Shown here: in pieces, positions 790 to 48,720 of the stretch
Numbering within the stretch: the first letter of the stretch is position 1
Layout of the letters: every line of letters begins with the position of its first letter
DNA from: Warburgia ugandensis
Taxonomy: Eukaryota > Streptophyta > Magnoliopsida > Canellales > Canellaceae
NCBI GenBank assembly: GCA_035236585.1
Contig: CP141128.1
Coordinates: 22,473,618-22,537,617 of the forward strand
Direction: 5' to 3'
Length of the DNA stretch: 64,000 nt
Notes under the pieces: model-generated
The model's database searches: none
What the model saw: only the letters and a program-made list of their open reading frames with translations
Told to the model about the DNA's origin: nothing
Translations under genes and position numbers: made by a program

Positions 790-794
790 GTCTT
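790..794. repeat. Target-site duplication of element B (left)
   Basis: GTCTT lies directly before the TGTTGATTG end of the LTR and is repeated exactly at 9593-9597. The duplicated bases belong to the LTR of element A, which resumes after the second copy. Confidence 0.9.
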
Positions 795-3066
795 TGTTGA
801 TTGTTTAACCGCAAGTGCACATGCTATTGTAGTGTAGCTTATGCAAGTACGGGTCGATCCTATGAGGACTTGAATTAAAAAGTAGGAATTTCAATAAAAT
901 TTAATAATGTAAAATTAAAAATAAATCACTCAAAATTATTGAAATGAGAATCAATGTTCAGATCTAATCAACTTCTCAAAAATACAGAATTTCCAGTTCC
1001 TAAAGAAAACAAACAAAATCAAATAATGAGAAAAAACTACTTCCCTAGATCACTCTTTATCAAAATCTTCACTTCTGGTCTTCTAAAAACTGATCCACCT
1101 TTACAGATATCTTCAACACGTTCTTGATTAGAGATCCACTAGTCAGATTTGACAGATTCTTCAAAATGGTCAAGATCTGGGCTAAATTGTCTTTTTAAGA
1201 TTTGGATGGCTCAGATTGATTTATGAATTTCAGATCTAAGATTAGAAGCATTGATTATGTCTATGGATTTCCTAAGAATGAACCTATAAAATTTATTTGA
1301 ATTCAGATAAGAAACGAAGGAGAAATTGTGGAATCTTGGTTGATTAAGGCTAACTCGTTGATTGGGTTAAGCCTTAAATCATCTAATTCAGTTTAGGCAG
1401 TTCCTGGATAAGAAAAATACAGATAAAACAAAGCCGGAATAAAATGGGATGCATATGGAATTAAACAGGGGACACAGATGGAATTAACGAGAAAGAACAT
1501 ATTTGTAATTTCATTAAATGAACAAGGGCAGAACTAGAATTAAACTAAGAATCTGGTTTTTAAGAAGAAACTAGACGAACCCGATGAAGAGGGGGAGTCG
1601 GAGGAGAAGGGAGAAAGGGAGAAGAGGGAAGAAGAGGAGAGGAAGAGAAAGAGGGAAGAAGGAGGGAAACCCGACTTGGGTTTCCTTCCCTAGCCCGTGT
1701 GGTGAAGTTCTGGGCAGTGGTGCCGCCGTCTAGGCAGTGCTGGTTAGGCTGGAAATGGGATGGCCTGGGTTTTTCCAGAAAATAGGTAGTAAGAAAAAAT
1801 CGCAAGAGAGAGAGAGAGAGAGAGAAGAAGAAGAAGAAGATGATGATGATGCCAGGCCTTCTAGGTGTGTCACGCACCTATGGCTGGCCAAGAGAAGACG
1901 GATGAAAAGTGGAAAATACAAAGGAGTAGAATCGACTAGCCTAACCAAAGGGAAACGAGAGATTAGAGAGGAGAGAGTGGAGGGAAAAGCGAGCCGGCCT
2001 ATGAGGTGCCAGGTAGAGGAAGAGGATGCCTGGTTTGGTTGCTGATCTATCTGGGCATGTGGCTGGGTGGAAGAGGTGGAGATCAATGGAGATTGGCAAT
2101 ATGAGAAGGTGGAGGAGCTGGGTGCGTGAGAGAAGGAGATGAGAGTGAGAAGGGTTCGTTAGCTATTTGGATGGAGATATAGGAGAAGAGAGATGGATAG
2201 AAGGGAGAATGGATAAAGACGTGAGAGAGGAAGAGAAGAGGAAGGTGATAAGAGGGATGGGTTTGCCAGAATGAGGAAGGGAAAAAGAGAGGAAATAAGG
2301 AGGGAAAGAGAAAAGAAAGGAAAGAGGGAGTGGGAATGGAAAGAGAGAATAAAGGAAAGAAAAAGAGAATAAGGAGGGAAAGAGAAGAGGAAGGGAAATA
2401 AGAGGAAAAGAGGAGATGGGGAGAATGGAGAAGAAGAAGAAGAAGAAGAAGAAGAAGAAGAGAATGGGTCTCCTCCTACGGTTCAGCCAAGAGGAAATGA
2501 GTGAGAGGTTGGGCGGTGAAGGAATAGGAGAAGGGAAACGTGGTGGAGAGGAGAAATAACGTGAGAGTAAAGTGGAAAGGAAAGAGGAGAAATAAGGCAG
2601 GAAAAAGAAAAGGAAAGAAGGAAAAAGAAAAGAAATAAAAAAAAAAGGAAGGAAAGAAGGAAAAAGAAAAGGAAGGAAAGAAGTGGGGGAAGGGGTTTCG
2701 TTTTTGTCCATGATTCCAAATTTAGCTCCATTGTCTTCTAGGAAACTATCACATCCATCTTCATGGGTGATCTGGCCCATCCAATCTTTTGTAAGATGAT
2801 CTGCACTGTTAACTTTTAATCGTATCCATCAGTGCCTCTTTTGGTTAATCCGCAAAAGAAAAGACTAAATCAAAATCATCTAAACTGTATATTAATTATC
2901 TAATGAGCTATAATGATCATCTGACCGTTGATTTTGACAAATTAAGGTTTGGATGGTCAATTGGAGTTAAATTCAAAATCAAGCTAAGTTTTGCAAAATG
3001 GAACGGTTAGATGATCTAATTGAACGTTAAATTAGGGGTATTTTGACGAAAATTGAACACTTAACA
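795..3066 (-). repeat. Element B left LTR (3' LTR)
   Basis: This LTR is about 2.27 kb, starting TGTTGATTGTTTAACC and ending TTAACA. It includes a long purine-rich tract on the plus strand (about 1560-2700) with a (GA)n run near 1804-1828 and a (GAA)n run near 2429-2461. Open frames across this tract are low-complexity artefacts. A motif, GGTCGATCCTATGAGGA (852-868), lies about 60 bases from the LTR end and is shared with element A. Confidence 0.88.
2429..2461 (+). repeat. (GAA)n microsatellite
   Basis: About eleven GAA units sit inside the purine-rich part of the left LTR of B. The matching place in the right LTR (about 8988-9002) is much shorter, so the tract has changed length since insertion. 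Confidence 0.9.
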
Positions 3067-3082
3067 CACCCCCCAACCAGCA
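3067..3082 (-). other. Element B polypurine tract
   Basis: Read on the minus strand, GGTTGGGGGGTGTG directly abuts the LTR beginning TGTTAAGTG. This is the expected position of the plus-strand primer of a minus-oriented LTR element. Confidence 0.8.
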
Positions 3083-4816
3083 TTTTGCTAGTCCCGAGCA
3101 ACACGTGCGAAAAACCAAATTTCAAGATTTCAAATTTTATTTTTAAGTCAACTCCTCTTTTTCCTCAGAGAATTATCTTTAATAAATCACATCACTTTAG
3201 CATACTAATAAAAATGACTGAAGAATTCAAAACCTTACCCATATGCCAATGTAATTCCACTTAAGCTCAGATCTCAAAGTGTGTGTGCATGTATGTACAG
3301 TTTACATATAGAATCATCTTAATCTCTAAGTAAACTTCTAACTTTTGAACTCCATCCGAAATATGTTTTGACCTCAATCCTCACTAATGGCATACACTCA
3401 GAAATAACATCTTTTAGATAAAGGGTCAAATCATATCTCTCTTTTAATTATGTGAGTTGAGTCAATAAAAGCAAAATTTTCTCACATGTGCTCATGAAAA
3501 ATGGGAGTTACTAAAGAATTTCATTATTTTGATCCCTTCAGAATAAATACCATTACCTTGGAATATTTAGAAATACCACTCTTTTAGATCCTGTCCATTC
3601 ATTTCCTCATCAATACTATATTCATCCCAGAATCAATAGGTCTTTAACTGGGACGAAATGTAGGCTTAGGACAAGGTACCAAAGAAAGGGTGTAAGGATA
3701 TTCAAAGTTTCTTCAAAAATAAGTAGAGGTCTTCTAAAGTTGATAACTCTTTCTTTCTTTGATGAAGTGAATATTCCTTTTTTCTTTCTCTTTTCTTTGC
3801 ATTCTTCAAACCTTTTTTTTTTTTCAAACTATTTTAGTACTTTTGAATCACTTTGAAGAATATTTCTTTTCTTAATATCCACTTTTCTACTTTTATTACA
3901 ACTAAAAGGGATTTCTTCATTCCTCTCTAATTTATTTTTCAAACAAAATGGGTAATGGATAATTTATACTGGGTTAATATGGGTAAAGGGTAATTTGGGA
4001 GGCAAAAGAAAAGGCTTATATTAAAGGCTCAAGTTGGCTAACTAGTGGTAAAAATATTTCTAGGTAGGCTTTATGTCTCCAGGTTAGCAATGAACTTCTA
4101 GACTTTTAAAGGTAACATTCTAATTATTCAGGTAATTAACCAAATTTAAGATTTTGTGGTCAATTTTCTTTAAGGGAAAATTAGGAATATTTATAACCTC
4201 TCAAAAAGGATGAATAGCTCGAAAAACTCACTTAGATTATAGGTCTTCACTGAATTTCTTTAGAATCTCTAAATTATAACAACTTATCAATCTAGACTAT
4301 CAATATGCAACTGCATGTACAGATGTGATCTAAGACTTTGCTTTCATGGAATACTTTAGAAAATGAGTAAAATGATGAATTAATCATATTTAATTTCATT
4401 AATAAGCTAAAGTTATCTAGATTATACTTTAGAAAATCCAATTCTCATCATAATGTAGGAAATGACCAAAAATTTTTCAATTTTTTTTTTTTTGAAAAAC
4501 AAGGAAAAACACCTAAAAATAAAAAAACTAGAATTTGCTAGAATTCTACACCCCCCAACACCTAAAAATAGAAAACCTAGAATTTGCTAGAATTCTACAC
4601 CCCCCAACCTAAGAGAAACATTGTCCTCAATGCTTAAAAAGTAGGACCTAAAATGAATATGGGTGATGTAGGAAACAACAAAAATGAAAAACTCTAGGTT
4701 GCCTCCCAGTGAGCGCTAAGTTTAAAGTCTTCAGCTAGACATATCCTCATTTATCTTTGAGTTTTCCTGATTCTAATAATGAAATGGCAAGATTTCTCAC
4801 ACCACTTCAAAATCTC
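3083..4816 (-). other. Element B 3' non-coding region
   Basis: This is about 1.7 kb of AT-rich sequence with T-runs near 3812 and 4481 and no credible open frame. It includes a 49-bp tandem duplication (4509-4606). After that comes a stretch (about 4606-4740, containing GGTTGCCTCCCAGTGAGCGC) that resembles a segment I recall as recurrent in plant LTR element 3' regions. No function can be assigned. Confidence 0.55.
4509..4606 (-). repeat. 49-bp tandem duplication with internal purine tract
   Basis: Two near-identical 49-bp units, 4509-4557 and 4558-4606, each contain on the minus strand TTGGGGGGTGTAGAATTC. That run is very like the polypurine tract at 3067-3082, about 1.5 kb away. The units also carry the imperfect palindrome CTAGAATTTGCTAG. 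Confidence 0.85.
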
Positions 4817-5422
4817 TCAGTAGTCTATATATTTCATCCACCCTGAAATTTTTAGTGATGGTCGCATTATAACACAATAAACTACCATGAATGTCAATTG
4901 AGTGGGACCACTCTGATGATCTCCTATCATCAAAATTTCACGGCAATCAATATAATTCCTCCACCTTGAAAATTTGGGTGGTGGAATCTTTATAACAATG
5001 TGAACTACCATTAATTTGAATTTTGTTTGACCATATGGATGTGGATGATCCTCCTTTTCCCTTACATTTTCCTTAAATTGAGGTATAAGCTGACTATGCC
5101 CTCTCTTAAAAGATTGTTCTGTTATTAATAAAGGAGGGGGCATGGTTTTGCTTACATCCTGATGATCTTCTAGTGTGTACCTTATAATTGATTGAGGTAT
5201 GGACAGTGTATCAATGAACTCTTTTTCCTCATGTTCAATTGGCACATGTAATACTTTAGGTGGTCCTAATTTCTTATCTAATGGTTGTTCAAATAAGGTC
5301 AGTAGGTCCCAATCAGGTACATCTTCAACATTACAAAGCTCAATTTGAATTTTAGGCTCTGTAAGGGGTTTTACTTTATCTTGCCATTGAGGAGTTTTCA
5401 TTAGTGGCACAATCTCCAACAA
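4817..5422 (-). CDS. Element B second open frame, function unknown
   Basis: A 201-residue open frame, downstream of the Gag-tail-like frame in element B and separated from it by 144 bases. I do not recognise a domain. The N-terminal 100 residues are acidic and proline-containing, with for example LTEPKIQIELCNVEDVPDWD at about 20-39. The C-terminal 70 residues look like two diverged copies of a roughly 33-residue unit: FKLMVVHIVIKI...WRNYID near 132-155 and TFMVVYCVIMRP...WMKYID near 175-200. There are no protease, zinc-knuckle or polymerase motifs. The start is the first ATG of the frame and is uncertain. It could be a decayed Gag-Pol remnant or an accessory protein of a non-autonomous element. 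Confidence 0.45.
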   Translation of the reverse strand: MLEIVPLMKTPQWQDKVKPLTEPKIQIELCNVEDVPDWDLLTLFEQPLDKKLGPPKVLHVPIEHEEKEFIDTLSIPQSIIRYTLEDHQDVSKTMPPPLLITEQSFKRGHSQLIPQFKENVREKEDHPHPYGQTKFKLMVVHIVIKIPPPKFSRWRNYIDCREILMIGDHQSGPTQLTFMVVYCVIMRPSLKISGWMKYIDY

Positions 5423-5565
5423 TTCCTTTACCTCTTCAAAGGATGTTCCTTCATTAATTTTGTAAAAATAAGCAGGACACGAATTGAGTGGTTTGGTGTT
5501 GGAGGTTCTTATGAATTCATCATCTTCCTCAATGGATGTCTCTTCATCGGAATCATAACAATGAC

Positions 5566-6165
5566 TCAGATCTGCCTCGAGTATATCTGTATTGGAGATT
5601 CTGTGGATAGTAGGGGACTTTGTATTTCAAAATGATCACATGAATTCTCTATCCTATCATTAATAGATGGTTCATCTTTATTTTCATTTGGTTCACATTC
5701 TCCAAATCTTTCCTTCAATGCAGCATGTAATCGACCCATCTCTTCATGAACTTGTTTGGTCGATTCTACTAATAACCCAAGGGTCTCGTTGAATGTGTCT
5801 TCCTCCGGTTGGAACCATAATTGTTGTTCTTGGTTTTTGTGATAATCCTGGTAGGGTTGATTAGGGTACGACCATGCTGGTTCTTCCTGAGATGGTTGAT
5901 AATCCTTAGACCATGATTGTTCCTGATACCTAGCCCATCCACTATAATCTTGGTAATTTGTCTCGGGATAGTAATTATTACTAGGTTCAGTGAATGCATG
6001 AGGTGCATCCATTGGCTCCTGATAATAATCATTATATGTAGAGCCATATGGCCAAGTAGAATTGGGATATTGTGGTTCAGCATAATAATTGTTGTACTGA
6101 GGTTGTGAATATGACTTAGCATCTTGCCTTGAGGCAAATAACCTATCTCTTGTACGAGTCATCAT
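5566..6165 (-). CDS. Element B first open frame, Athila Gag-tail-like
   Basis: A 199-residue open frame. Residues 20-115 are rich in Tyr, Gln, Pro and Asn, with repeated NYY/YxxP motifs. Residues 115-160 (TFNETLGLLVESTKQVHEEM and on) look helical or coiled-coil forming. The segment NNYYPETNYQDYSGWARYQ followed by SWSK matches NNLYFETYNLGWARHAK followed by SWSK encoded by element A near 47700-47785, the tail of Athila Gag beyond the capsid. No capsid domain or zinc knuckle is present. I infer a Gag-tail-derived protein kept by a non-autonomous element. The first ATG was chosen; the frame opens about 1.2 kb after the primer site. Confidence 0.6.
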   Translation of the reverse strand: MMTRTRDRLFASRQDAKSYSQPQYNNYYAEPQYPNSTWPYGSTYNDYYQEPMDAPHAFTEPSNNYYPETNYQDYSGWARYQEQSWSKDYQPSQEEPAWSYPNQPYQDYHKNQEQQLWFQPEEDTFNETLGLLVESTKQVHEEMGRLHAALKERFGECEPNENKDEPSINDRIENSCDHFEIQSPLLSTESPIQIYSRQI

Positions 6166-6439
6166 TTATCTATCCCATTCTTGATAAGCCATTGTAATCA
6201 ATCTTTATATACAACAAACTAAATTGTATATAATGAATGAGTACTTTTTTTTTTTTTTTTCTGAAAGACTATCCTAAATGCCTAGGATGATGCACAATCA
6301 AGGACACAATCAAGAAATCCCTTAAGGTTAACAAGCATAAATATTTTGATTTTCTTGATTTTCTGTGAGGACAACGCTTTTAATTAGCCTGATCTAACGC
6401 TCCTACTCTCTTTAGGAGTTGACTACTACTTACCAGTTA

Positions 6440-6770
6440 GGTTCTAACCAAAGCGGTTAATACAACCCTCGTATAAGGAGGCATTTAGACCTCAACAAAC
6501 GTCGACAGGCGGTGGGGGAAGAGCGAGGCTCTATTAGACAACCCCCAATAACTACAGTGATCAAAAGCAACCAGAGTGATAGTAATTCGTGTCCTATTAA
6601 GAGGGTCCTATGAGCATGTGATGACCCTATAGGTCTCTTCTGATTAATTTTAAATTAATGTGACTGGTGGGGTTGTGCGCTTAAGGTGATTATCCTATGT
6701 GGGCTAAGGAGTGGTGATGAAATCCACCCTTGATCTTGTGGGGTCGGGTGCCCTTACTAATTAATTTTCA
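6440..6770 (-). repeat. Leader module shared with elements A and G
   Basis: Part of the 1.2-kb untranslated leader of B. It aligns with the leader of element A (about 49005-49325) and with both LTRs of chromovirus G (about 17430-17760 and 26395-26705). Anchors are GGAGGCATTTAGACCTCA, GGGGAAGAGCGAGGCTCTAT and GGTCCTATGAGCAT. The rest of the leader (6166-6439 and 6771-7378) is AT-rich, with a T-run at 6247-6261 and nothing else recognised. Confidence 0.8.
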
Positions 6771-7378
6771 CACACCATGGCAATTCGATCAGCATATAAA
6801 TCACCTTAAAGCGTTAAATGTGCCCTAAGAATGCAATTGAAAGCATTAAACTAATGCAAAATCCTAAAATGCAACAATTATTAAAAGATGCTTTCTATAT
6901 GAGTTACACTACCAAACAATGCAAACCCTAATCTAGAAATTAAATGAGTGAGAAGACTTACAGTGAGGTTTCTAATGAAGATCAAGTGTGGACCACCTTA
7001 ACCCACACTTGCCCTATATTATACAACCCTTTAAAATTTGAAATGGAAATTCCAATTTACAACGATCCTCACTACAAGATTCACTCAAAAGAAAAAAGAA
7101 AGTCTTATTCTAGGAAAGCAGGAAAATTTCCATATTGGTTAAGATCCACTTGCCAAATTCCTCCACTTTCCAATTTCCTGAAAAATAAAATTAGAAATTA
7201 GTACCAAATTCAGGAAACAAGGTGATTATGCCCTAAAAACAATTGAAAAATGCACCTAAAATTTTCCTAAAATGCTAAAAATTGTAATTCCTATTTTTTT
7301 CTGAATTTTTAGAAATTTTCTAATTTTTTTTTATTTTTTTGGATTTTTAATTAAATTTTATGAAAACTCCTTTGCAAG

Positions 7379-7396
7379 TCCCCAGCAACGGCTCCA
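7379..7396 (-). other. Element B primer-binding site (tRNA-Asp-like)
   Basis: The minus strand reads TGGAGCCGTTGCTGGGGA. It differs at two of 18 positions from TGGCGCCGTTGCCGGGGA, the complement of the plant tRNA-Asp 3' end used by Athila-type elements. It lies six bases from the LTR. Confidence 0.85.
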
Positions 7397-7402
7397 AAAA
7401 CT

Positions 7403-8375
7403 TGTTGATTGTTTAACCATAAGTGCACGAGCTATTGTAGTATAGCTTATGCAAGTACGGGTCGATCCCACGAGGACTTGATTTAAAAAGTAGGAATTTC
7501 ATTAAAATTTAATAATGTAAAATTAAAAATAAATCACTCAAAATTATTGAAATGAGAATCAATGTTCAGATCTAATCAGCTTCACAAAAATACAGAATTT
7601 CTAGTTCCTAAAGAAAATAAACAAAATCAAATAATGAGAAAAAACTACTTCCCTAGATCACTCTTTATCAAAATCTTCACTTCTGGTCTTCTAAAAATTG
7701 ATCCAACTTTACAGATATCTTCAACACATTCTTGATTAGAGATCCTCCAGTCGGATTTGACAGATTCTTCAAAATGGTCAAGATCTGGGCTAAATTGTCT
7801 TTTTAAGATTTGGACGGCTCAGATTGATTTACGTATTTCAGATCTTAGATCAAAAGCATTGATTATGTCTACGGATTTCATAAGAATGAACCTGTAAAAT
7901 TTATTTGAATTTAGATAAGAAATGAAAGAGAAATTGTGGATTCTTGGTTGATTAAGGCTAACTCGTTGATTAGGTTAAGCCTTAAATAATCTGATTCAGA
8001 TTAGGTAGTTCCTGGATAAGAAAAATGCAGATAAAATAAAACCGGAATAAAACAGGACACAGATGGAATTAACAAGAAAGAAGATATTTGTAATTTTGTT
8101 AAATGAACAAGGGCAGAATTGGAATTAAACTAAAAAATCTGGTTTTTAAGAAAAAACCAGACGAACCCGATGAAGAAGGGGAGCCGGAGGAGAAGGGAGA
8201 AAGGGAGAAGAGAGGAGGACGGAAGAAGAGGAGAGAAAGAGAAAGAGGGAAGATGGGTTTCCCTCTTCGGCCCGTGCGGTGAAGTTCTGGGCAGTGGTGC
8301 CGCCGTCTGGGCGGTGCTGGTTAGGCTGGAAATGGGATGGCCTAGGTTTTGCTGGAAAACAAGTAATAAGCGAAA

Positions 8376-8444
<69 letters not shown>

Positions 8445-9592
8445 GATGCTAGGCCTTCTAGGTGTGTCACGCACCTATGGCCGGCCAAGAGAAGAGGGAT
8501 GAAACATGGAAAATATAGAGCAGTAGAATCGACCAGCCTAACCAGAGGGAAACGAGAGATTAGAGAGGAGAGGAAGAGGATGCCTGGTTTGGTTGCCGAT
8601 CTATCTAGGCATGCGGCTGGATGGAAGAGGTGGAGATCAATGGAGATTGGGAATACGAGAAGGTGGAGGAGCTGGGTGTGTGAGAGAAGGAGATGAGAGT
8701 GAGAAGGGTTTGCTAGTTGGTTGGATAGAGATAGGAGAAGAGAGATGGATAGAAGGGAGAATGGAGAAAGACGTGAGAGAGGAAGAGAAGAGGGATGGGT
8801 TCGTCAGAATGAGGAAGGGAGAAAGAGAGGAAATAAGGAAGAAAATAAGGAGGGAAAGAGAAAAGAAAGGAAAGAGGGAGTGGGAAAGGAAAGAGAGAAT
8901 GAAGGAAAGAAAAAGAGAATAAGGAGGGAAAGAGAAGAGGAAGGGAAATAAGAGGAAAAGAGGAGATTGGGAGAATGGAGAATGGAGAAGAAGAAGAAGA
9001 GAATGAGTCTCCTCCTCCTACGGTTCAGCCAAGAGCAGATGAGGGAGAGGTTGGACGGTGAAGGAATAGGAGAAGGGAAACGTGGTGGAGAGGAGAAATA
9101 ATGTGAGAGTAAAGTGGAAAGGAAAGAGAAGAAATAAGGAAGGAAAAAGAAAAAAAAAGAAAAAAAAAAAAAGGAAGGAAAGAAGGAAAAAGAAAAGGAA
9201 GGAGAGAAGTGGGGGAAGGGCTTTCCTTCTTGTCCATGATTCCAAATTTAGCTCCATTGTCTTCTAGGAAACTATCACATCCATCTTCATGGGTGATCTG
9301 GCCCATCCAATCTTTTGTAAGATGATTTGCACTGTTAACTTTTAATCGTATACATCAGAGCCTCTTTTGGTTAATCTGCAAAAGAAAAGACTAAATCAAA
9401 ATCATCTAAACTATATATTAATTATCTAATGAGCTATAATGATCATCTGACCGTTGATTTTGACAAATTAAGGTTTGGATGGTCAATTGGAGTTAAATTT
9501 AAAATCAAGCTAAGTTTTGCAAAATTGAATGGTTAGATGATCTAATTGAACGCTAAATTTGGGGTATTTTGACCGAAATTGAACGTTTAACA
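7403..9592 (-). repeat. Element B right LTR (5' LTR)
   Basis: This LTR is about 2.19 kb, TGTTGATTG to TTTAACA. It is followed by the target duplication GTCTT at 9593-9597. It has the same purine-rich centre as the left LTR. The motif GGTCGATCCCACGAGGA is at 7460-7476. Minus-strand open frames across 9018-9306 and plus-strand ones across 8499-8951 are low-complexity by-products. Confidence 0.88.
8382..8441 (+). repeat. (GA)n microsatellite
   Basis: About 60 bases of GA repeat lie in the right LTR of B. The matching run in the left LTR is only about 25 bases, so it expanded or contracted after insertion. Confidence 0.95.
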
Positions 9593-9597
9593 GTCTT
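9593..9597. repeat. Target-site duplication of element B (right)
   Basis: GTCTT, an exact copy of 790-794. The LTR of element A resumes immediately afterwards. Confidence 0.9.
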
Positions 9598-46607: not shown

Positions 46608-46990
46608 ACACGTAAGGATTCATATGGCCCTAGGTAAGAATATTTGAGGTTGTCAAACAACAATTTCATTAAATCATTCCTACAGTTAATAATGGCATTG
46701 GACATCGCTAAGATTGGACATCTAAGTATAACAAAAATTTGACTGCTGGGATCAGATATAGACTGGGTGTCCAGTACAATGAAATCTACTAGGTAGTAAA
46801 AGTAGTCCACCTATATCAAATATATCTTAAACCATACCACAGAGTATCTTCATTGATCTATTTGCTAATTGCAATGTAGTGGCGGTTGGTTTTAGCTCAC
46901 CGATCCTTAGTTGCTCATAGACAGAGTATAGCAACAAGTTTGCACTGTGTCATTAAATTTGGGTACGATCTTGTGTTGAATTAAAGGGCT
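46608..46990 (-). pseudogene. Element A protease region
   Basis: The frame at 46589-46810 shows VDFIVLDTQSISDPSSQIF followed by NAIINCRNDLMKLLFDNL, the conserved downstream part of Athila-type protease. It is broken, and separated from RT by the insertion of E. Confidence 0.8.
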
Positions 46991-48128
46991 CACTTCCTCT
47001 ATGAGGAAAGCCTTCTTCTATACATTCAACTTTCTCTTTCTAGTGTAGAGCTCTTTAAGGAACTTGGCATAGGTAAGGACATCTTTTATTACATTGAGCA
47101 ATGGGATGTTAATTTGTAGATATTGAAATACATCTATGAGCTTGTTGAAGTTTCCTCCCTTTCTAGCCTTGTTCATTAACTGAGGAAATAGGGCTTTGGG
47201 CACATACACTATAGGTTCCACAAGATATTTCTATCTTTGCTCTTTTTTCCTCTCCAGTTTCTTTAGATTGCCCTACTTTGTTGTTGACCTAAAGATTTCT
47301 CCTAAGGGTTGTTGCAGACTTAGCATGCTAATGAGGATTATGAGTTTGAGAACTTGACCCTATCTCAAATTGGCCCTCGGGATTTGGGAGAGATTGACTA
47401 GGAAACCCACCCTTTCCTCTATCTTGTATTGCAGTAGACAATTGGCTAACCTACTTCTCTAATGTTGCAATGGCTTGAGAGTTAGCATAGGTTGAATGTT
47501 AATTATCATTTTTACAATTGGTTTTTAGCCTTGATAGTTTCTTCATTTTGCTTTAAAGATATATTAATAAGGGCCTAAATGTTTTCCTCAAAGGATGGTT
47601 TCTTTCATTCCTAAGGTTGTTTGAAACTAGGTGGCTGTTAAGGAATTATAGCTCTATGAATGTTTTGGTTAGGGAGATTCATAGATGGTTCCCCTTGGCA
47701 GTTATTCTTTGACCAAGAAACTTTTGCATGCCTAGCCCATCCAAGATTATAGGTCTCAAAATATAGGTTGTTGCTAGGATTGCAATATGAATTTTATGCA
47801 TTCATGTGTTCAATAAGATAGTTAGTAGGTGCCCTATTTGATGGACAAGATATGGTCATATGGGTTGGGTTAGAATAGAGAGCACGGACCCCTTGTGGAG
47901 GCTTAATAAATGTAACTTCCATGAGGGACTCAAACATAGTTTCAAGTTTGTCTGCTCTCCCATCATACTGGTTCATTCTCTCATGTATAGAGTCGAGCTG
48001 ATGGGCTAGATCTCTATGCACTTCAATCTCATATAGAGCCCCTTTCTTTAGAGGTTGTTGCTTCTCTCTCTTCTATTTGAATAATCTCATTGTCGAGAAT
48101 TATTTACCAATATCTGAAAGAACTCCCA

Positions 48129-48163
<35 letters not shown>

Positions 48164-48720
48164 TATTAGCATGAGAGCCCCTTCACTCATGGCATCTACC
48201 ATTTGCCAATTCTGAGGCATCAATGTCTTAAAGAAGTATTACACTTGTTGACAGTTTTTGAGTCCACGAGGTGTGCATTTTTACACTACATTCCACTGTT
48301 CCCAACATTCATAATATTGTTCATCATCCCTTTGTTGGAAATTTATAATTTCCCTACAAAGGGCATTTTTTTGTGAATAGGGAAGAATTTATTTAAGAAC
48401 TTCATAGACAATTGGTCCCATGTACATATGGAACCTACCTCCAACGAATTTAGCCAGGATATGGCTTTATCCTTGAGTGAAAATAAGAATAAGTTAATCC
48501 TAATAGCATCGTCCAAAAACTTTTAGAACTTAAATGTGGAGCAAATATTAAGGAACTCCTTGATATGTAGGTAATGATCATCTCATTCTTGACCACAAAA
48601 TTTGTTGGGGGTAGAGCTATGCAAGATGGGCTCTTGAGATTTAGTGGTGCATAAAAATCTCTAATAGATTTGCACTTGACTTCTACTAGTAGTGCACCCA
48701 CGGAATAGGTACTTGCTTTC
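46991..48720 (-). pseudogene. Element A Gag and linker region
   Basis: The linker at 47018-47221 shows YVPKALFPQLMNK, LQINIPLLNVIKDVLTYAKF and LYTRKRKLNV. The Gag tail at about 47690-48021 includes LGWARHAKVSWSKNN, the segment echoed in element B. Capsid-type remnants occupy about 48180-48701. A (TC)n run lies inside the region. Many breaks. Confidence 0.8.
48131..48160 (+). repeat. (TC)n microsatellite
   Basis: About 15 TC units lie inside the Gag region of element A. Confidence 0.95.

Follow-up and report, generated by a model that had tools for sequence, protein, structure and literature searches.

Why non-autonomous long terminal repeat (LTR) retrotransposons retain coding sequence, whether as a supply of Gag to a common pool or because packaging depends on translation of their RNA, is a question raised by a 64,000 nucleotide stretch of the Warburgia ugandensis genome (GenBank assembly GCA_035236585.1, contig CP141128.1, positions 22,473,618 to 22,537,617), here called the window. 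Positions 795 to 9592 of the window are occupied by element B, a complete LTR element on the minus strand with TG...CA LTRs, a target-site duplication, a primer binding site and a polypurine tract, all of which had been listed in an initial annotation and were located in the sequence (Table 1). B is probably an old and broken copy of a non-autonomous family with cis sequences akin to those of the genome's gag-pol family and that, as its relatives in the same genome suggest, keeps open a composite open reading frame (ORF) that lacks a capsid and is weakly constrained. As this genome (1.12 Gb in 14 contigs, the single genome searched) also contains gag-pol relatives of B and a recombinant element, comparisons within it can address much of this question.

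The initial annotation assigned B its own pair of proteins of about 200 residues. The two frames are present (199 and 201 amino acids, at 6165-5566 and 5422-4817 on the minus strand), but they are the halves of one ORF that is broken in the window copy by a frame shift and a stop relative to the related locus L041. Both halves are read in one frame in L041 (478 codons) and in a second relative, L044 (521 codons), and two separate proteins are thereby ruled out. Among the matches listed, four loci without stops (C14:19.67, C6:82.62, C9:33.90 and C7:70.09 Mb) have a single open-frame length that spans both halves, and two of the four, L041 and L044, were examined at the sequence level. Most listed B-type copies do contain stops, with 123 in total across the 37 copies aligned. 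In L041, whose 3′ LTR lacks a large part, identity between the aligned LTR pieces is 98.4% and 99.3%, and in L044 it is 96.6%. Neither locus is a textbook single insertion, because the five bases that flank L041 mismatch at one position and the 3′ LTR of L044 (~9521, element sense) runs into further primer-site-like sequence, as in a tandem LTR-internal-LTR arrangement.

As the initial annotation had stated, B has neither pol nor a capsid domain; capsid, protease, reverse transcriptase (RT) and integrase were all sought and none was found. Pfam searches of the two window frames returned no family at the cut-off, with DUF4404 (E 0.14) the sole row, the homologous ORFs of L041 and L044 returned nothing at E up to 0.5, and no solved structure matched the ORF at E up to 1. 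Retrotrans_gag is recognized by Pfam in the Gag of L043, a recombinant described below (E 3.4e-21), and not in the L041 and L044 ORFs, and this Gag when searched against L041, L042, L044 and B gave no match. B therefore has neither the capsid-bearing gag nor the pol, with protease, RT, RNase H and integrase, of an autonomous element, nor do the L041 and L044 ORFs have the capsid domain of the TR-GAG elements. The second half, initially considered unrecognized, is not wholly so. With a profile built from the 37 ORF copies, residues 218-454 align in hhalign with residues 144-365 of the protease-RT-RNase H frame of the gag-pol element L046 (P 5e-7; blastp of the ORF to this frame, E 7.5e-12), and the best portion of the alignment, judged by eye, is residues 218-275, within the linker that precedes RT. 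The description does hold for the C-terminal region, which in L041 contains two copies of a 32-residue repeat, identical at 20/32 positions. Residues 29-133, in the first half, align in hhalign with a decayed Gag tail elsewhere in the window (P 3.7e-7), and tblastn places this match at 47,877-47,653 (E 6e-7), between the capsid-side and C-terminal Gag matches. The resemblance to the tail of an Athila Gag that had been noted thus holds for this decayed Gag, and for four of the six loci related to it, which match the first half at E <=0.01 (best 1.9e-9), the remaining two giving no match. The decayed element itself (46900-48650, minus strand) is of another lineage and has a capsid, an insertion of AG-rich repeat and a Gag tail, the last being the best match to the start of the B ORF. 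As judged from these alignments, the ORF is a composite in which a capsid-less, Gag-tail-like piece is followed by the Pol linker between protease and RT and by an unrecognized repeat region. Athila is a provisional label for B, for L043-L048 and for the element at 47-48 kb in the window, following the initial annotation and a general likeness in Gag, Pol and primer site.

The initial annotation had asked whether both frames stay open across copies with an excess of synonymous change. A codon alignment was made of 37 copies, namely B, 34 listed loci, L041 and L044, with L001, L009, L020, L038 and L042 excluded as being the same places, and the composite ORF is present already in all copies compared. 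Insertions and deletions (indels) common to at least three copies have lengths divisible by three in 6/6 cases in the ORF versus 8/41 in the 3′ untranslated region (3′-UTR; 31 copies; p 0.0003), and those common to two or more copies in 10/11 versus 10/57 cases (p 6e-6); of the singleton indels in the ORF, 9/24 are multiples of three. The ratio of non-synonymous to synonymous change (omega) is 0.65 for changes common to at least three copies and 1.14 for single changes (Fisher p 0.0013). By parsimony, internal branches have 305 non-synonymous, 182 synonymous and 10 stop changes, and terminal branches 1,026, 370 and 107, giving an omega of 0.57 internally and 0.94 terminally (Fisher p 8.2e-6), with stops 3.7-fold rarer on the internal branches (10 versus 487 other changes, compared with 107 versus 1,396; p 7.2e-6). 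This contrast persists when C>T and G>A changes are removed (0.60 and 0.94, p 0.0035). Codon maximum likelihood gives 0.67 and 0.92 for the whole ORF (likelihood ratio tests, p 0.0024 versus an internal omega of 1 and p 0.032 versus equal omegas), and the part of the ORF after the first 190 codons gives p 0.0078 and 0.028 in the same two tests. In control frames, the internal omega exceeds the terminal omega at +1 (0.90 versus 0.62) and is slightly below it at +2 (0.83 versus 0.95, p 0.29), whereas reverse offset 2, which has its third codon position in common with the true frame, drops as the true frame does (0.56, 0.96) and reverse offsets 0 and 1 do not. The open frame of the B-type ORF has clearly been retained as the family spread, and with an internal omega of 0.57-0.67 purifying selection on the ORF is present and weak.

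Several results weigh against a protein kept for its sequence or otherwise limit this picture. The amino acid sequence is only loosely constrained, the constraint being weak. Over the whole ORF the internal-terminal contrast is not significant at rarely changed sites (p 0.23; p 0.58), nor is it significant in the first 190 codons with all changes (p 0.11), with C>T and G>A changes removed (p 0.9) or by codon maximum likelihood (p 0.15 against internal = 1, 0.48 against equality). The 37 copies were drawn from the top of similarity lists, and the sample therefore leans to the subfamily of the window copy. The ORF aligned with the Gag of L043, which is of the partner type, gives no significant hhalign match (E 0.45), and the link to a Gag tail rests for that reason on another lineage. 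The gag-pol elements examined are themselves not intact, having stops and interrupted frames. As a yardstick, 15 copies of the Gag of the same genome (L043 and 14 of 63 listed, all at least 91% identical) give an omega of 0.15 on internal and 0.52 on terminal branches; internally, the capsid part gives 0.04 (26 changes) and the tail 0.20 (20 changes), the contrast in the tail having p 0.079.

The proposal that B belongs to a group without pol or capsid is borne out by many copies in the same genome. The first frame has at least 241 matches (150 of 6,336 candidates scored) and the second at least 150 (150 of 8,029 scored). A pattern for the B-type ORF start occurs at 284 sites and one for the partner-type gag start at 835, both with up to three mismatches and with none for the reversed-pattern controls, these being counts of sites rather than of elements checked individually. 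Outside B, the last 700 bp of its 3′ LTR find a best identity of 89% (40 of 4,493 candidate places scored), and there is therefore no close sibling of B among the scored places. One of these places, C9:25.15 Mb, is a B-type ORF locus, and six are at gag-bearing elements (C1:50.13, C12:22.63, C1:28.76, C2:36.12, C4:81.20 and C7:60.08 Mb). In places the start sites are regularly spaced, a pattern like that of tandem arrays with LTRs in common, by ~6.64 kb for the B type (C7:70079079-70092394) and by 10.7 kb and 8.69 kb for gag (C6:10506796-10577626 and C7:45929699-45955802). There is also a short-period array at C2:18407054-18410864, in which B-type ORF starts occur four times at intervals of 1.23-1.29 kb.

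The likely partner is represented by gag-pol elements examined in parts, with the stretches of L045 and L046 starting near the gag end and L047 and L048 being upstream parts of these elements. In L046 a stop separates two frames that together encode protease, RT, RNase H and integrase, and L045 encodes RT, RNase H and integrase in interrupted frames, with RVT_1, RNase H and rve named by Pfam in both; the protease segment of L045 is not named by Pfam, yet is 92% identical in DNA to that of L043. The gag at the L045 and L046 places matches the L043 Gag over its full length (93%), with five stops at the former and two at the latter. The B ORF region has no DNA match in L045-L048. The sequences that B and these elements do have in common are those that act in cis: LTR ends (83-85% identity), leader, 3′ region, primer site and the same purine tract with the first 11 bases of the LTR. 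The tract and first LTR bases, TGTTAAGTGTT, are identical in L041, L043, L045 and L046, with one difference in L044. The primer-site pattern is present in B, L044 and the gag-pol L047 and, by eye, in L041; a pattern search did not find it in L042, L043 and L048, and the stretches of L045 and L046 begin downstream of the site. LTR-to-LTR distances are 6,526 in B and ~10,720 in the gag-pol element at C5:46.86 Mb, and the composite ORF of B would stand where gag-pol was. Given these common cis sequences and the recombinant L043, mobilization in trans by the RT and integrase of the gag-pol family, within its particles, is most likely how B was copied.

L043 combines parts of both types. Its leader is 94% identical to that of L047, its Gag has 709 amino acids and its protease segment is 92% identical to those of L045 and L046. 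Downstream of the protease, the region from RT to integrase is replaced by a B-type second segment that is 84-86% identical to B, L041, L042 and L044 and is absent from L045-L048. The 3′ region is 89-90% identical to L045/L046, 89% to the B-type L041/L044 and 82% to B, and as sequence is uninformative on its parent of origin. The first switch point falls in a short stretch in which both parents are alike. An element of this type suggests, without proving it, that B-type and gag-pol RNAs were co-packaged and joined by template switching. From the lists only, a gag and a second-segment match occur at about the same spacing as in L043 at C7:35.10, C3:40.97 and C7:23.90 Mb.

That the ORF is a neutral leftover, with B a deletion derivative comparable to the large retrotransposon derivatives (LARDs), which are large non-coding derivatives of LTR elements, and its frames open by chance, might be argued from the broken window copy, the 123 stops in the 37 copies, the terminal-branch omega of 0.94 and the lack of a Pfam family above the cut-off. 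It is nevertheless very unlikely. A LARD has an internal region without coding function, whereas here the common indels keep the frame in 6/6 cases versus 8/41 in the 3′-UTR, stops are depleted and omega is below 1 on internal branches, and ORFs of 478 (L041) and 521 codons (L044) remain open between LTRs with aligned pieces 98-99% and 97% identical. It is equally improbable that the frame was conserved only inside an autonomous gag-pol ancestor and that the signal dates from then. Both halves do resemble parts of Gag and Pol, but the composite ORF is already in every copy compared, and omega is still 0.61 on the internal branches of small clades (2-7 tips), with 5 stops versus 290 other changes. 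No listed match has the first half in an open frame of more than 522 amino acids, which is too short for a 709-residue Gag plus that half. A gag-pol member in which these frames are leftovers, which would have undone the initial proposal, was not found in the few elements examined; L043 has only the second segment, and L045 and L046 have neither.

Strong retention of the frame with weak retention of its sequence fits a need to translate B RNA, for stability or for packaging coupled to translation. The B-type family separates this idea from Gag supply, because an element without capsid or enzymes cannot supply particles. The reading judged most likely, at about an even chance, is that the frame stays open chiefly because translation along most of its length would be needed for B RNA to be stable and packaged in cis, with only loose constraint on the product. 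Ranked second, and rather doubtful, is a role in which the tail protein would bind the partner's Gag and bring B RNA into its particles. Less likely than not is the idea of a long-lived parasite of parasites, to which a protein without recognized structural or enzymatic domains would still be required, the open translated frame or a Gag-tail adaptor being its ticket into the partner's particles and openness being selected over sequence. A specific trans-acting protein, such as a Gag-tail decoy or a regulator entering those particles or holding them in check, is also on the unlikely side. The Gag-tail similarity and an internal omega below 1 in small (0.61) and large (0.50) clades argue for such a protein, but the constraint is far weaker than in the 15 Gag copies (0.15 internally), and Ty1 p22, reportedly a truncated Gag that restrains particles in yeast, is said to keep capsid sequence, which the B ORF does not.

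Table 1. Features of element B (positions in the window) and location of the recombinant L043
Feature	Position	Strand	Basis or remark
5′ LTR, 2,190 bp, TGTTAA...TCAACA	9592-7403	-	LTR alignment and sequence
3′ LTR, 2,272 bp, TGTTAA...TCAACA	3066-795	-	LTR alignment and sequence
Target-site duplication GTCTT (+ strand), copy flanking 5′ LTR	9593-9597	.	sequence
Target-site duplication GTCTT (+ strand), downstream copy	790-794	.	5/5 bases match upstream copy
Primer binding site TTGGAGCCGTTGCTGGGGA	7379-7397	-	2 differences from L044, 2 from gag-pol L047
Untranslated leader	6245-7378	-	stretches including leader 84% to L047 and 83% to L048 leaders (gag-pol elements)
Short upstream ORF, 8 codons, directly before main ORF	6166-6192	-	in many, not all, copies
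Remains of single ORF; frame change ~5599, stop 4817-4819	4760-6165	-	alignment to L041
Gag-tail-like part, ORF residues ~29-133	5770-6080	-	hhalign, tblastn
Part matching protease-RT linker of Pol, ORF residues 218-275	5348-5521	-	hhalign, blastp
Unrecognized C-terminal region of ORF	4760-5140	-	
3′ untranslated region	3079-4691	-	84-85% to gag-pol elements L045, L046
Polypurine tract GGTTGGGGGGTG	3067-3078	-	adjoins 3′ LTR
L043: gag-protease and B-type second segment	C1:50127600-50134000		

The LTRs of B, initially put at about 5% difference, are further apart than that, with a Kimura two-parameter distance of 0.083 (168 substitutions in 2,157 aligned positions). The divergence is uneven, 0.051 in the first 480 alignment columns and 0.080 in the last 860, in an alignment whose AG-rich repeats are possibly misaligned in part. 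The 8-codon upstream ORF of B-type copies ends just ahead of the main ATG, and some copies have AG-rich sequence in its place. Just past the ORF (~4555-4610, minus strand) lies another purine tract resembling the one at the 3′ LTR; it is followed by GTAGAATTCTAG and occurs twice in B, and L043, L045 and L046 have a similar tract at about this position.

Non-autonomous Athila families of Arabidopsis have ORFs for Gag, or for Gag and Env, with an omega of ~0.2-0.4 and recombine frequently (Marco and Marin 2008, PMC2410132). B resembles them as an LTR element without pol, with long multiplication, an ORF under purifying selection and recombination between families, and differs in an ORF that has no recognized capsid domain, joins a Gag-tail-like piece to a Pol linker and is weakly constrained. 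In wheat, RLG_Quinta, the centromeric partner of RLG_Cereba, has a clear GAG and a domain of unknown function (PMC11302176); like B it is non-autonomous with LTR termini and primer site in common with its partner and an ORF that contains an unrecognized part, and unlike B, which lacks a clear GAG, it is described there as a centromeric lineage with one. The barley RLG_Sabrina, RLG_WHAM and RLG_Derami are non-autonomous families of the Athila clade, with a potentially intact gag in WHAM and Sabrina_A, a broken gag in Derami and no coding capacity in Sabrina_B (PMC5738225). B, a putative member of the Athila clade, is non-autonomous as they are, and the sections of that account available to us describe no maintained ORF without a capsid. 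TR-GAG elements, one of which, from ATCOPIA63, has been observed to move in Arabidopsis, have a single ORF and no pol, as does B, but are defined by a GAG protein with its domain, which was not found in B (PMC8704663). Within the excerpts covered, the literature on non-autonomous LTR elements (including PMC2410132, PMC11302176, PMC8704663, PMC5738225 and PMC10881000) names no comparable maintained ORF without a capsid, which is not proof of absence. The B-type ORF may help to show what hitchhiking elements need from a protein of their own. Selected Gag or Env ORFs have already been described in non-autonomous Athila families; what is new here is the variant whose ORF has no capsid.

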